Below, one piece after another: positions 668 to 10,001 of a stretch of 11,411 bases of DNA (the stretch's first letter is position 1; every line of letters starts with the position of its first letter). The notes below the pieces were generated by a model. The model did not search any database. It was not told where the DNA came from and saw nothing but the letters and a program-made list of their open reading frames with translations. Origin of the DNA: an uncultured Candidatus Poseidoniales archaeon (lineage in GTDB: Archaea > Thermoplasmatota > Poseidoniia > Poseidoniales > Thalassarchaeaceae); contig CATMIM010000007.1 of NCBI GenBank assembly GCA_950068635.1, positions 1 through 11,411 on the forward strand, in the 5' to 3' direction. The translations under genes were made by a program, and so were the position numbers.

Positions 668-1849
668 TCACTCGTCGTGGTATTCGGCCCAGTCGTCCTC
701 GTCGGGATAGCGATACCACCAGACGTCTTCCTCGTCCTTCCACCACTCGACGCCGTCCGCATCCACGTGGTAGCTCTCGTCGTCCATGTACTCCTCGTCC
801 TCGCCGCGCTCCACTTCCTCAAGTTGACCGTCGCGCGGGCGGGCTCGCGTCGGCATGATGTCATCGAGCGGGCGGGTCAGGCCCAGATCCGCACCTCTGT
901 CCGGAGCCGAGGACTCGAACTCCCCTTCCACTGTGGACAGCCAGTCCGAGTCATCCTGCTCCTCTTCCTCGACAGCGCCTCTCCTACGGGTGGTGAGGAG
1001 GAACAGGGCGGCCATCAGCACGACGGCGCCGGCGATCGCGCCCCACATCCAGCCGGCGATTCCGCCTGTCTGCTGGGTCGGTTGGTCGGGAGGAATAGGG
1101 GTGGCGGCTGCGATGACCAGATAATCGAGTTCGACGATTGAACTGTTGGAGATCCATCCTCCTGCGTTGACGGGCAGGGTGATGACCAGCGTTCTTGGTC
1201 CGGGTGTGGCATTCACCAACGCCTTCGCCACGAAACTGATGGTCTTGGATTCGTTCGCCGCCAGGCTCACTGAGTTGCCCGGCATGACGAACATGTCAAC
1301 GCCTTCGGTCGGCGGTGCGAAGTCGATGCCGACGCTGATTCGCACCGGATTGAGATTGAGGAGTTCACACTCCATGGTCATCGACGATTCGTTCTCGATG
1401 ATGCGCCAATCCGTATCCTCACAGGTCATGTTGACCGGCAGCAACTCCGGGTCCGGCTCCGGCTCGGGCTCTGGCTCCGGATCAGAAGAGGGCGGGCGGA
1501 ATTCCACGGTCAGCGGGTTGCCTGACAACGTGAGCCATCCGGAAAGGTTGACCTCGTCGATGGAGATGTCAAGCTGGCCACCGGTCGCATGATCGAAGGT
1601 CACAATGGCCAGCCCGTCGCTGTTGAACGTCGCCGTTCCACTGCCGATGCTCGTCTGCTCGGACTCGTTCCTCGCCGACCAGTCGAATTCCATCCCAGAG
1701 AACAGGGGCTGGTAAACCGAATCGGCGGCGAGCAGCCGGATGGTGACGTCTGCGGAATCACCGGTCATCTGCACATCGGTGGAATCTGCGGACAGCGTCG
1801 CATCCACGTGCGCGTGGGCGGGCGCGCTGGCGCTGGACGAGCCCAGCAC
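668..1849 (-). CDS. C-terminal part of a giant membrane-anchored surface protein (downstream of in-frame TAG)
   Basis: This 393-codon frame follows the TAG at 1850-1852 without a gap and in the same frame as the 994-codon ORF before it. Its only nearby start is the GTG that abuts the TAG. It has no signal peptide and begins in the middle of an Ig-like domain (about 1-118), so it reads as the rest of one protein. Next come an acidic Glu-Pro linker (123-135), a second beta-rich domain with two cysteines (about 139-248, C143 and C161), a Pro/Gln spacer, one transmembrane helix (about 265-286, GWMWGAIAGAVVLMAALFLL) stopped by TTRRR, and an acidic cytoplasmic tail ending in a Trp-rich module (GVEWW, DVWWYRYP, DDWAEYHDE). 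This is the architecture of an archaeal surface protein with an extracellular N-terminus. A GGAG 11 nt upstream of the GTG leaves re-initiation possible. The frame ends in TGA. Either the downstream piece of a broken gene or of a read-through product; the ligand is unknown. Confidence 0.75.
   Translation of the reverse strand: MLGSSSASAPAHAHVDATLSADSTDVQMTGDSADVTIRLLAADSVYQPLFSGMEFDWSARNESEQTSIGSGTATFNSDGLAIVTFDHATGGQLDISIDEVNLSGWLTLSGNPLTVEFRPPSSDPEPEPEPEPDPELLPVNMTCEDTDWRIIENESSMTMECELLNLNPVRISVGIDFAPPTEGVDMFVMPGNSVSLAANESKTISFVAKALVNATPGPRTLVITLPVNAGGWISNSSIVELDYLVIAAATPIPPDQPTQQTGGIAGWMWGAIAGAVVLMAALFLLTTRRRGAVEEEEQDDSDWLSTVEGEFESSAPDRGADLGLTRPLDDIMPTRARPRDGQLEEVERGEDEEYMDDESYHVDADGVEWWKDEEDVWWYRYPDEDDWAEYHDE
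1445..1483 (-). repeat. Glu-Pro codon repeat (low-complexity linker)
   Basis: Thirteen codons alternate GAG/GAC/GAT with CCG/CCC/CCA, encoding D-P-E-P-E-P-E-P-E-P-D-P-E. This makes a stiff acidic linker between two extracellular beta domains of the surface protein. The plus strand shows it as a run of GGCTCC-like hexamers, and copy number may vary between strains. Confidence 0.8.
1832..1847 (-). other. stem-loop two bases after the in-frame TAG
   Basis: On the coding strand GCTGGG-CTCG-TCCAGC folds into a six-base-pair stem (one G-U pair) with a CUCG tetraloop. It starts two nucleotides after the TAG at 1852-1850. Structures just downstream of stop codons can promote read-through, and a downstream hairpin has been proposed at some pyrrolysine sites, but in GC-rich coding DNA such hairpins also arise by chance. 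The fold is certain on paper, the function speculative. Confidence 0.35.
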
Positions 1850-1852
1850 CTA
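1850..1852 (-). other. in-frame amber (TAG) codon splitting a 1388-codon frame
   Basis: The coding strand reads GAC AAT TAG GTG CTG GGC, and the frame is open on both sides for 994 and 393 codons. The break falls inside an Ig-like domain: the upstream side ends EYAGGIYGDDN and the downstream side continues VLGSSSAS. No other complete gene in the window ends in TAG; the ten others all end in TGA. A single change (CAG or TTG to TAG, for example) would explain it as mutation or sequencing error. Re-initiation at the abutting GTG or recoding of TAG are alternatives. Confidence 0.9.
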
Positions 1853-4834
1853 ATTGTCATCTCCGTAGATTCCTCCAGCGTACTCGGCGGTGATGCTCAC
1901 ATCTCCGACCATCATCCCGTAGGCGGTCAGCGCATCCTCCCAATCCGCCCAGGATATGATCGCCCTGCCGCTGCCGTCAGTCACCCCCATTTTTGTGCCA
2001 GAGACGGTGCCAGCCGAGATCTCGACCGAGACAGCGCGGCCGATGAGCAGCTCTCCCTCACTGCTCAGTTGGACATCGACATCCACGGAACTGCCGGATT
2101 GGAGCGGATGCACCCCTCCCACCGGGACAGAACCGGTGGAGACAGCGATGCTGATCTCGGACGGGCGCACCGTGTTGTTGTGCGCCTGCACCGGACCGGT
2201 GGCGGTCACGTTCCACCAAGCGTTCCCGCTGACATCGACCGAGACCACCGCCGCCCACACGTCGCTTCCGTCAGCGATCGCGCTGCCGTCCCCGAGAGTA
2301 CTGACATTCACCAGCGTATCTTCACCGGCACTGATCTGCGCAACCGGCGTCAGCGACGAGGCGTCGGAGATGTCCGTGGACTCGACGAACAGCAACTCAT
2401 AATCCAAGTCCCCCGAGGCGTTAGCAGCGGTCCACGATGCGATGAGAACACCGCCGGAATCGTCTGCACGGTCTGCAATCGAGACCGTCACGGCATCGGG
2501 TGGGGTGGTATCAGGAGGTTCGGGGGGCGGTTGTGCAGGAACGCTCACCGTGAGGATGTTCGAGAAGTGGCTGTAGATGCCGAAGTTGTAGAATGCACGC
2601 ACCTGATAATCGAACGTCTTGTTAGCCACATTGTTCCCATCCATGATACCGTTGGCCAGTGGAGACATGTGAGCGAGGGATGGACGGTTGGTGCCGTTCA
2701 ACCAGCGGAACAACTCGTAGTTCAGGAAGCCGGGGGCACCGGCGCTGATGTCAGTCCACATCAGAGAGACATTGTCCCAAGCGACACCGTAGAGGCTGAG
2801 TATGGGGGCATCTGGCAGAACCTGGTTGAGCGCTCCGTCAATCCAATTGATGTTCACAGCCTCGAGCGTCACAGAACCATTGCGCGTGGCGGACAGAGGA
2901 AGGCTGACGTTGAACGTCCCGCTACCCATCTGCATCACGAGGTTGAGCGAGTTCGACAGGTTGCCAGTTCCGAGGTTGTCATCGATCAGGAAGAACGCTG
3001 AGTAAGTGGCGTTGAATCCAGACATGCGTACATCTCCTGAACCGAGCGACGAGACCATCGGCCTCACCGAGATCATCTCGATGCCGTATTGGTAGAGCAT
3101 GGGCGCCATCATCCCAGCAGCGATGTTCTGTGAGAGTCCTTGAGTGATGTTACCCTGGTTGAACCACTCCAGGTTGTCAACGCCGTTCTGTCCATCTCCC
3201 GCATAGCCCGCGAGAACTCCCTCGTCGTCGCCGTCACCCTCCACATCGAAGCCGACCTCATGCCAGCCGGCCATGAACAGACCCCGCTGGCTCTCTCCAG
3301 CGCTGATCAGTTGTTCGAGATGACCGTCTCCGTCGAGGTCAGCCACCTGCACCTCACGCGGCGCGGTGTGCGGATTCAGGTTACGATAAGGTTGGGTGGT
3401 GATGGTGCCGTTGGGGGCGAACGCAAACACGGACAGGTTGCCATCCATGGTGGAATCGTTTCCATCCGGACTCCCAATGGACGCTACCAGCATGTCGATG
3501 GTTCCATTCCCGTTCCAATCGGCGAAGGTGTGGTTGACAGATTGCAGACCGGGCGCAAGCTGGGTGGTCCAGCCACTGCCGTTGAAGCGTGCCGTGCATG
3601 CGCCGCCATCGTAATCCCCGACCAGATCGACGAAGCCGTCGCCGTCATAGTCAACGGCCTGCAACCCGCGCTGTATGCAATCGAAGCTGAAGTCCGTCGC
3701 CAGTGGAATCCACGAGTTGTTGGTGAAGTTGTACATGCTCGTGTGTCCGTCCATGCCGTCGACCACGGCCACGGACAGGTTGGTTCCCTGACTCCAGAAG
3801 TCCTCCACCACCAAAGAGGACAGAGGGGCACCCATGCCGCCCACAGACCCGTTCTGCTCGATGTAGAAGGTGATCGCCCCATCGAGCGAGCCGTTGGCCT
3901 GGTTCCACAGACTGACGTTCAGGTTCCCGTTGTTGTGCACGGTCACCACATCACCGTAGCCGTCCTGTGACAGGTCGGCCACCACTGCCGCCGTCAGATC
4001 AGGCCCCATGCTGACGTTGCTCGAGTTGCTCCATGTGCCGTTCCCGTTGGACAGGCCGATGCAGAGGTGCGAGGAATTCAGGTCGAGGGCCAGCATCTCG
4101 GCATAACCATCATTGTTCAGGTCCCCGGTGATGAGTTTCGTCGCATCGGCGCAGGTCGCCTCCCAGTGGATATTGCTGAATCCGGTGGTCGACGACCAGT
4201 CGACGTAGCCGATCGCTGGGCTTGAGTTGCCACTCGGCCAGAGGTGGTCCCGCTGCAGGAACATCGGTTCTGGTAGACCATCGTTGTCGACATCCGCAGT
4301 TTCGAGATGATCGATGATGCCGGTCTGGATCCAGCCGCCGCCGAAGTCCGGCGTGAACTCGACAATCATGCCGACGTTCTGCAATTGAGTGGTGCTCGGT
4401 AGCAGGAAATCAATCAGCGGCCCCCCACTGCTGTTCACCGCGGTCGTGTTCGACGTGGAACCATCAGAGAAGGTCCTCTGATCACCCAGATCACCGAATC
4501 CAAGGTAATCGTACTCCCATTCGTACAACCCATCCTGGTCGATGTCCAGGCGAACCACGCCCGGGCTCGGTCGAGCAGCGTCGTAGTTGATGTCCATGGT
4601 GGCGCTGGTGATGGTGCTGTTGCGCATCAGTGTGAGCAGCGTGTCGTTGTTGACACCTGTCGTGTTGATGTCCACATCCACCGAGTTGCTGCCATCTGCG
4701 AATGTGTAGATCGAACCAGCGTGGCTCGACGCCAGCGCACCACCAAGAAGGGGGGAAAGCGGTGCGAGCAGCAGCACTGCGAGCAGCAGGAAAGTCCCGC
4801 GCCGGCGGTCGCGTACGCGCGTCACATGTGCCAC
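1850..4834 (-). CDS. giant secreted/surface protein, FG-GAP/VCBS repeats, FN3-like and Ig-like domains (N-terminal part)
   Basis: The 994-residue frame opens with a clear signal peptide: Arg-rich RVRDRRR, a hydrophobic core (residues 14-34) and a probable cleavage after GGALA or ASSHA. From about 90 to 540 it carries repeats of the FG-GAP/VCBS type with calcium-binding loops D-x-D/N-x-D-G: LDIDQDG (96-102), ADVDNDG (180-186), GDLNNDG (237-243), ADLSQDG (286-292), VDYDGDG (394-400), ADWNGNG (438-444), ADLDGDG (498-504). These probably form a beta-propeller that binds proteins or glycans. Two FN3-like domains follow (about 675-768 and 778-885, with a Pro-rich joint), then an Ig/Big-like domain from about 886 that is cut by the TAG. 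Asn-X-Ser/Thr sequons are abundant, suggesting N-glycosylation outside the cell. The start is GTG 4834 or GTG 4825; an in-frame TGA lies 27 bases before the first. Without the downstream part it would lack its membrane anchor. Probable role: adhesion or substrate capture. Confidence 0.85.
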   Translation of the reverse strand: MAHVTRVRDRRRGTFLLLAVLLLAPLSPLLGGALASSHAGSIYTFADGSNSVDVDINTTGVNNDTLLTLMRNSTITSATMDINYDAARPSPGVVRLDIDQDGLYEWEYDYLGFGDLGDQRTFSDGSTSNTTAVNSSGGPLIDFLLPSTTQLQNVGMIVEFTPDFGGGWIQTGIIDHLETADVDNDGLPEPMFLQRDHLWPSGNSSPAIGYVDWSSTTGFSNIHWEATCADATKLITGDLNNDGYAEMLALDLNSSHLCIGLSNGNGTWSNSSNVSMGPDLTAAVVADLSQDGYGDVVTVHNNGNLNVSLWNQANGSLDGAITFYIEQNGSVGGMGAPLSSLVVEDFWSQGTNLSVAVVDGMDGHTSMYNFTNNSWIPLATDFSFDCIQRGLQAVDYDGDGFVDLVGDYDGGACTARFNGSGWTTQLAPGLQSVNHTFADWNGNGTIDMLVASIGSPDGNDSTMDGNLSVFAFAPNGTITTQPYRNLNPHTAPREVQVADLDGDGHLEQLISAGESQRGLFMAGWHEVGFDVEGDGDDEGVLAGYAGDGQNGVDNLEWFNQGNITQGLSQNIAAGMMAPMLYQYGIEMISVRPMVSSLGSGDVRMSGFNATYSAFFLIDDNLGTGNLSNSLNLVMQMGSGTFNVSLPLSATRNGSVTLEAVNINWIDGALNQVLPDAPILSLYGVAWDNVSLMWTDISAGAPGFLNYELFRWLNGTNRPSLAHMSPLANGIMDGNNVANKTFDYQVRAFYNFGIYSHFSNILTVSVPAQPPPEPPDTTPPDAVTVSIADRADDSGGVLIASWTAANASGDLDYELLFVESTDISDASSLTPVAQISAGEDTLVNVSTLGDGSAIADGSDVWAAVVSVDVSGNAWWNVTATGPVQAHNNTVRPSEISIAVSTGSVPVGGVHPLQSGSSVDVDVQLSSEGELLIGRAVSVEISAGTVSGTKMGVTDGSGRAIISWADWEDALTAYGMMVGDVSITAEYAGGIYGDDN

Positions 4835-7078: not shown

Positions 7079-7094
7079 GCTGTGAGGGACGTGG

Positions 7095-7168
7095 CGGACC
7101 TGCCGCGATTCGAACACGGGTTTCCAGCTCCGGAGGCTAGAGTGATATCCAGGCTACACCACAGGTCC
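7095..7168 (-). tRNA. tRNA-Arg (anticodon CCG)
   Basis: The 74-nt minus-strand sequence folds as a full cloverleaf: acceptor GGACCTG/CAGGTCC with discriminator G, a D arm with GTG/CAC and loop TAGCCTGGATAT, anticodon stem CTAGC/GCTGG (one U-G pair) with loop CTCCGGA, a four-base variable loop (AAAC), and T arm CCGTG/CGCGG with loop TTCGAAT. The anticodon CCG reads CGG (Arg). No intron and no encoded CCA are present. It lies between the thioesterase and the YajC-like gene and limits the thioesterase start to 7048. Confidence 0.93.
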
Positions 7169-7776: not shown

Positions 7777-7817
7777 ATTGCCCAACCTCATCAGGGGAGG
7801 TACAGTCCGTCGAAGAG

Positions 7818-7891
7818 CGGTCCCTCCGCGATTTGAACACGGGTCTCATCCTCCGCAGGGATGAAGGATATCCAAGCTACCCCAAGGGACC
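7818..7891 (-). tRNA. tRNA-Arg (anticodon GCG)
   Basis: The 74-nt minus-strand sequence folds as a cloverleaf: acceptor GGTCCCT/AGGGACC with discriminator G, a D arm around TAGCTTGGATAT, anticodon stem CATCC/GGATG with loop CTGCGGA, variable loop AGAC, and T arm CCGTG/CGCGG with loop TTCAAAT. The anticodon GCG reads CGC and CGU (Arg). No intron and no encoded CCA. It shares its T stem and much of its D loop with tRNA-Arg(CCG) 650 bases away, suggesting common descent. A TATA-like ATTTAAT lies 29 nt upstream. Confidence 0.93.
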
Positions 7892-8761: not shown

Positions 8762-9934
8762 TCACACCGACAGTTCGCTGACACGCGGCACGAGTACGAT
8801 GAACTCCACCGTGAGGTCCCAGTCGTTGCCCTCGTCCGGGTCGAAGCCATCGACGAGGAAGTCCGGGTCGGCATCATCGGCGCGCACCGACCAGACCCAC
8901 TCTCCCTGTCCGAACCTGGCACCCGCCTCGGCGAGCAACTGCTCCCGCAGCTCGTCGACGTGGTCGGCGCTGAAGACCTGTTCACCGACCGGACGGGGAT
9001 TCATCCCCTCACGCTCGATATAGGCGGTCGCCGGTTTGGTGAAGTCTTCGTCTTCCTGATCGGTCTGCGCCTCATCGGTCCAGCCACTGCCGGGAACGGT
9101 GATCCCGAGGGTGAAGTTGTCCTGTGGCTGGGTGCCCGGCAGCAGATCCATCTCCAGTGTGAGCGTGGCGTTCACAGCCAGCAGCCGACCATCTGTTCCC
9201 GGAACGTGTGACTCCGCCCATGTCTCCCCTTGGGCGAGATATCCTGACCAGTTGAAGTTGATGCGGCGCTCCTCCCAGACCACCTTCCATGTGCGCGTGT
9301 ACACGTCGATGCTCCACAGCCGGGTGATGCTCGCACCCTGGTCATCTGTGACAGTCACCGAACCGCTGCGCTTCCCCGAACTGTTCAGCAGCAGGCTGAC
9401 GCTCGTCTCCGTCGAATCGACATCATTCTCGGTGTCGCCGTCAAGGTCGCTGTCCGCGCTCCAGTTGAGGTCCCAGGCGAACGCGAGCACTCCGCCCTCA
9501 GGGTCGGCTGAGGAGGAGGCATCGAGGGTGACAAGATCGCTCACCTTGGCCGTCGTCGGCATCGCCAGAGAGACGAACGGATAGCCATTGACGTTGATCG
9601 TCCAACGGGCGAGATCAGTGCCACCCTGGTCATTGCTCACCTGCACGCTGGCTTCGTAGGTGCCCAGTTCTTCGTAAACGTGGGTGGCGAGGCCCTGAGT
9701 GCTCGTATGGGTGGTGCCGTCACCGAAGTCCCACAGAAACTCGACGATCACCGTAGCATCAGGGGTGGATGAATCGCGGGCGTCGAAGTTCACCGCCTCG
9801 CCCGCATGGATGTTGTCAACATCAACAGACAGGCGGGCTTTGGGATCGGGCGGGCCGATGACGCTCGTGCAGCCTGAGAGCAGCAGACTGGCCAGCAGGA
9901 AGCAAGCCAGCATCGAGCGGACGCCCTTCGTCAT
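8762..9934 (-). CDS. PKD-domain lipoprotein
   Basis: The product has 390 residues from ATG 9934. The N-terminus is a lipoprotein signal: MTKGVRSMLA, a hydrophobic core, then LLLSGC with C22 as the lipid-attached cysteine. Two PKD-type beta domains follow: one at about 33-116 with the hallmark FLWDFGDGTTHTS (66-78) and HVYEELGTYEASVQVSNDQG (85-104), and one at about 118-212 with DASSSADPEGGVLAFAWDL (138-156) and VTVTDDQGAS (193-202). The second holds a DSDLDGDTEND insert (161-171) that may bind calcium. Residues 213-390 are a further beta-rich domain I do not recognise. PKD domains usually mediate extracellular contacts. The frame is open back to ATG 9994, but ATG 9934 begins exactly at the signal peptide and has GTTAAAC 25 nt upstream. 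Probably anchored at the outer face of the membrane. Confidence 0.85.
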   Translation of the reverse strand: MTKGVRSMLACFLLASLLLSGCTSVIGPPDPKARLSVDVDNIHAGEAVNFDARDSSTPDATVIVEFLWDFGDGTTHTSTQGLATHVYEELGTYEASVQVSNDQGGTDLARWTINVNGYPFVSLAMPTTAKVSDLVTLDASSSADPEGGVLAFAWDLNWSADSDLDGDTENDVDSTETSVSLLLNSSGKRSGSVTVTDDQGASITRLWSIDVYTRTWKVVWEERRINFNWSGYLAQGETWAESHVPGTDGRLLAVNATLTLEMDLLPGTQPQDNFTLGITVPGSGWTDEAQTDQEDEDFTKPATAYIEREGMNPRPVGEQVFSADHVDELREQLLAEAGARFGQGEWVWSVRADDADPDFLVDGFDPDEGNDWDLTVEFIVLVPRVSELSV

Positions 9935-9955
9935 GGGACGGGAGCCAGAACCATC

Positions 9956-9962
9956 GTTTAAC
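9956..9962 (-). promoter_or_regulatory. TATA-like element of the PKD lipoprotein gene
   Basis: GTTAAAC on the minus strand is centred 25 nt before ATG 9934, fitting a leaderless transcript and supporting that start over ATG 9994. Confidence 0.5.
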
Positions 9963-9989
9963 AGGCTGACGCAGCCATGCAGTCCCTGC

Positions 9990-10001
9990 CCCATCTATGG
10001 G
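9990..10001. repeat. short palindrome upstream of the lipoprotein promoter
   Basis: CCCAT-CT-ATGGG has perfect 5-base arms about 30 bases upstream of the putative TATA element of the lipoprotein gene and 20 bases after the stop of the SAP gene. It could be a regulator site or chance. Confidence 0.3.

Follow-up and report, generated by a model that had tools for sequence, protein, structure and literature searches.

An in-frame TAG codon interrupts a surface-protein gene in an environmental assembly of a Candidatus Poseidoniales archaeon

The DNA described here is a stretch of 11,411 nucleotides (the window) from an uncultured Candidatus Poseidoniales archaeon (assembly GCA_950068635.1, contig CATMIM010000007.1). 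Positions 668–4834, on the minus strand, hold the frame of a surface protein with FG-GAP repeats, an immunoglobulin-like (Ig-like) region, a membrane anchor and an acidic tail. The frame is interrupted by one TAG. It starts with GTG and continues for 994 sense codons (1853–4834) before the TAG, which is codon 995 (1850–1852). A further 393 codons (668–1849), opening with a GTG directly 3' of the TAG, lead to a terminal TGA. Hence, the 1388-codon frame with a single in-frame TAG, as described in an initial annotation made from the sequence alone, was recovered in full.

Kyte-Doolittle hydropathy identified only two strongly hydrophobic stretches in the frame. One resembles a signal peptide (residues ~12–37; 4724–4801, minus strand) and the other, the sole candidate membrane anchor, lies beyond the stop (residues ~1258–1284; 983–1063, minus strand). 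The initial annotation had proposed this same arrangement of signal and anchor around the TAG. The FG-GAP repeats located by Pfam precede the stop; the best FG-GAP_3 (PF13517) stretch covers residues 238–297 (3944–4123, minus strand; E 6.3e-15). The TAG had also been placed inside an Ig-like domain. A Big_1 (Ig-like) match to residues 884–1110 does span the stop, but it falls below the Pfam cut-off (20.4 against 34.9 bits; E 5.8e-4). The 393-residue part after the stop was assigned no Pfam family and, by hydropathy, has no signal-like start. A profile search of the PDB gave weak matches only, the best of them to a secreted esterase (E 1.4e-5) and outside the stop region. The protein ends in an acidic, tryptophan-rich tail of ~40–50 residues (671–832, minus strand), which other proteins across the order share. 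Residues ~1335–1388 gave many separate matches, and one frame of the same genome (L153, contig C50) carries a matching tail near its end at 38% identity. Anchored surface proteins may commonly end in such a tail.

The source genome (G000) is ~60% complete and lies in 292 contigs. It was compared with 58 others, so that 59 genomes were covered, 25 of them at least 90% complete; G001 and G002 are relatives from the same genus. The frame had a match in 50 of the 59 genomes (G000 counted), and the match reached E 1e-60 or better in 32 of the 58 others. A stop inside the match was found for G000 only; the matches listed for 26 other genomes span codon 995 and none contains a stop. The nearest relative covering the site is G002. 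Its orthologue is open over residues 1–1388, with 93% protein identity, and the DNA aligns over 4167 bases without a gap (3927 identical). Codon 995 in G002 is CAG, for glutamine (Gln), a single-base difference from TAG. Matches in G001 are confined to residues 1–417 and 1107–1388, at contig ends, and leave the stop site uncovered.

All 24 relatives aligned, namely G002 and 23 database proteins of 1381–1441 amino acids, have Gln in the stop column, at identities down to 26%. The database search behind them scored the 7998 candidates sharing most words. When the DNA was aligned pair by pair, 15 of 29 loci covered the codon, and 12 of these encode Gln (8 CAA, 4 CAG). The other three gave R (E 1.6), A (E 2.9e-8) and P (E 3e-7), which we took, without proof, to be local misalignments of weakly aligned loci. 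A scan of genome contigs returned three loci in two records, labelled uncultured euryarchaeote and Candidatus Poseidoniales archaeon, in keeping with the Marine Group II of the initial annotation. The gene is also split in G032, by a gap of 10 N. Thus the residue in close relatives, which the initial annotation had suggested examining, is Gln, and its claim of one gene broken at one codon is supported. Two genes with an intervening gap and a new signal peptide, the arrangement it had set against that claim, were seen in none of the relatives compared.

The part after the stop looks coding. Its codon score is 0.187, against 0.185 before the stop, and at the off-frame stop density of the same stretch 393 codons would stay free of stops with a chance of ~7e-5. 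Between G000 and G002 the ratio of non-synonymous to synonymous rates (dN/dS) is 0.197 for the part before the stop and 0.226 for the part after it. Non-synonymous to synonymous (N:S) changes private to G000 number 4:7 over 417 codons at the N-terminal end and 8:9 over 280 at the C-terminal end, on a short branch. Neither measure revealed decay after the stop, and the G000 branch is too short for decay to show. Since dN/dS is similar on both sides, the stop is either recent, an error or tolerated.

Alignment of G000 with G002 uncovered a second in-frame TAG in the source genome. It lies in the gene of a subtilisin-like protease on contig C32 (L095; 2122–2124, minus strand), with 876 codons before the TAG and 707 after it, up to the contig edge. 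At this site G002 has TCG, for serine (Ser), in an open frame of 1589 codons. The gene is open in G001 too and, among the matches listed for the 59 genomes, that of G000 alone contains a stop. The column is variable in relatives (S, T, V, I, H, K and others). Judged by eye, the protease opens with a signal-like stretch and carries a membrane stretch in its C-terminal part. The case was selected for having a stop, and so gives no rate by itself. In G053 (L193, contig C75, 7900–8500) a frameshift splits the orthologous protease without any N gap, and the split in the G033 protease holds 14 N.

Same-frame interruptions in 61 G000 contigs (545 kb) were counted by a census based on coding potential. 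There were 42 candidates, of which 36 were TGA, five TAG and one TAA. Candidates in which a start codon closely follows the stop were set aside and the rest were judged by eye, rather than counted by script; the window and C32 alone were left. The other three TAG candidates were L088 and L094, dropped for a start codon within three codons of the stop, and L087, rejected with a post-stop frame of 78 codons that overlaps a 200-codon frame on the opposite strand. Planted stops were recovered in 2167 of 2370 cases in strong frames of at least 300 codons, and 80,711 codons were testable. A stricter census found the window and missed C32.

A base-level alignment of G000 with G002 and two stretches of G001 covered 59,535 bases, places aligned to both relatives being counted twice. 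It used 35 of the 61 G002 contigs; the others read N and were left out. Five stops in G000 faced a sense codon. Besides those of the window and C32, two fall right where the C32 frame begins, and one, in L150, was dropped as its frame is non-coding. Five stops in the relatives likewise faced a G000 sense codon. Four are no more than 33 codons into the frame; the fifth, a TAG in L130, is at codon 74 of a G000 frame whose first 80 codons score as non-coding. By G000 codon usage, 56–57% of single-base nonsense routes give TAG, and CAG to TAG is the commonest route to a stop (15–25% of the weight). Two TAGs are hence unremarkable (probability ~0.32).

Models of PylS and PylD were each above cut-off in none of the 59 genomes. 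Each was passed by one of 14 control genomes, and Methanosarcina acetivorans was among the controls passing. Matches below the cut-off occurred in 56 of the 59 genomes for PylS (best 35 bits, against 178) and in nine for PylD (best 21.7, against 150). These were taken to be other enzymes of the same superfamilies. Because G000 is 60% complete, its own lack of PylS and PylD is weak evidence. We typed 28 tRNAs in G000. The anticodon CTA is not among them, with one match left untyped and no pylT-specific model run; tRNA-Gln is likewise missing, which, together with the untyped match, marks the set as incomplete. That match (L192, contig C39, 7581–7693) belongs to the tRNA family and could not be typed by ARAGORN with or without introns.

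Predicted gene ends were counted on 41 contigs of G000 (403 kb). The 206 ends comprised 180 TGA, 19 TAG and seven TAA, and the 19 include the TAGs of the window and C32. We inspected 17 TAG ends, drawn from another gene list, by eye; most then lose the frame or meet a new gene. Hence, TAG is a working terminator in G000. The initial annotation had the window TAG as the only one at the end of a frame. This holds within the window, where the ten ends checked, 668–670 included, are all TGA, but not for the genome. Of the checks that it had proposed on recoding, those for PylS and PylD and for TAG at gene ends turned out unfavourably for that idea.

RNA downstream of the stop folded no better than shuffled sequences, either in the window (z −0.73 and −1.31) or in C32 (z +0.62 and +1.25); G002, which lacks the stop, gave z −1.53 at the same site. 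A hairpin can form directly 3' of the TAG (window 1790–1849, minus strand), and the same region of G002, with its CAG, also folds a hairpin.

We consider it somewhat probable that a single recent nonsense substitution has struck one gene, which encodes an anchored surface protein. The frame, the stop, the Gln of relatives and the lack of visible decay downstream are direct observations behind this reading. On the coding strand, CAG would have become TAG by a C-to-T transition in one recent event. Ribosomes would then stop at codon 995 and produce an exported fragment of 994 residues with no anchor. The last 393 codons would remain untranslated, or be made only through rare read-through or reinitiation. 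Such an allele would probably be young; it would either still be segregating or be in the course of being lost. Three points weigh against this explanation. Gln is invariant at the column in the protein alignment, so that selection should oppose its loss. Both breaks in long exported proteins of this one genome are TAG, a mild coincidence at the probability given above. Finally, a real allele and a consensus error are inseparable from assembly sequence, and both are live. An error of consensus or sequencing, with the cells carrying a sense codon and the gene whole, is less likely in our estimate and still a serious contender. The assembly is fragmented and incomplete, and the absence of decay downstream fits an error as well. 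Around 3.2% of random coding substitutions are nonsense, so an error rate of ~0.03% would place two stops in the testable codons. The G053 frameshift, which has no N gap, indicates that stray breaks occur in such assemblies. Conversely, private changes show no non-synonymous excess (N:S 12:16 for G000 over 697 codons, 24:19 for G001 and 43.5:48.5 for G002), and among the listed non-triplet gaps none clearly breaks a G000 gene, one (L086, 9007) being ambiguous; both are weak tests. Of the causes put forward in the initial annotation, nonsense mutation and sequence error therefore both survive, and pyrrolysine is unsupported.

A tolerated stop is unlikely. A near-cognate or suppressor tRNA would read through the TAG, and some full-length anchored protein would be made beside a secreted short form. 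Each TAG does sit in a long exported protein, after a signal-like start and before a C-terminal membrane segment, and dN/dS after the window stop is as low as before it. With 28 tRNAs identified in a genome that is 60% complete, and the match on C39 untyped, a suppressor could be missing from the set. However, the replaced residues differ (Gln and Ser), the typed tRNAs lack the anticodon CTA, the RNA after either stop folds no better than shuffles, and no relative listed or aligned has a stop at either site. Low-level read-through is possible but unsupported. That amber read-through in this genus toggles long surface proteins between a secreted and a membrane-anchored form is very improbable. 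Read-through of this kind, if real, would be absent from the archaeal list in the accessible part of a 2021 review (PMC8211752), where the demonstrated archaeal cases are selenocysteine and pyrrolysine. Two separate genes are more doubtful again. Reinitiation at the GTG directly after the TAG is conceivable, and the 393-residue query, scored against the 8000 candidates sharing most words, retrieved two C-terminal-only proteins of 342 and 300 amino acids at 75–76% identity, beginning at residues 1048 and 1088. Neither begins at the stop site, and both, from contigs of 1.9 and 3.3 kb, may be fragments cut off at a contig edge. The part after the stop has no signal-like start, and the gene is a single frame in G002 and all 23 aligned database relatives. 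We rejected the two-gene arrangement, with these two pieces as a reservation. Least credible is a pyrrolysine codon. Pyrrolysine is encoded by Methanomassiliicoccales (the part of PMC4153887 available to us), which the initial annotation had named as related. It was rejected on the PylS and PylD results, the TAG gene ends and the Gln of relatives. General reassignment of TAG was rejected on the same gene ends and on the differing residues at the two in-frame TAGs. Different residues, and only two cases in 545 kb, fit sporadic nonsense changes or consensus errors, and not reassignment.

A substitution of the kind favoured here, a recent nonsense change, has close parallels. According to the portion of Belinky et al. 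(2021; PMC7918605) accessible to us, in-frame stops are common in bacterial genes, mostly short-lived and on the scale of population polymorphism. Their short-lived stops in conserved prokaryotic genes share with ours a single-base CAG/TAG difference and purifying selection, whereas the present case is one assembly of an archaeon. The same text warns that many raw in-frame-stop cases are artefacts. Pyrrolysine TAG genes of methanogenic archaea (PMC8211752 and PMC4153887, as excerpted) resemble the window in having an in-frame TAG in an archaeal gene; they differ in that here PylS and PylD are below cut-off, relatives carry Gln, and TAG serves as a terminator. FG-GAP/Ig-like anchored surface proteins of Candidatus Poseidoniales (Marine Group II) have the same domain order, and only the window copy is interrupted by a stop. 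Literature listings held nothing on premature stops in Poseidoniales, nor did the available sections of PMC9723677 and PMC8629427. One stop in an environmental assembly is not evidence for recoding, and as it stands matters little.

Elsewhere in the window, two tRNA-Arg genes lie on the minus strand at 7092–7168 and 7817–7891, with anticodons CCG and GCG. A PKD-domain protein is encoded at 8762–9994, also on the minus strand; its start, SLLLSGCTS, resembles a lipoprotein signal, with the lipobox judged by eye.
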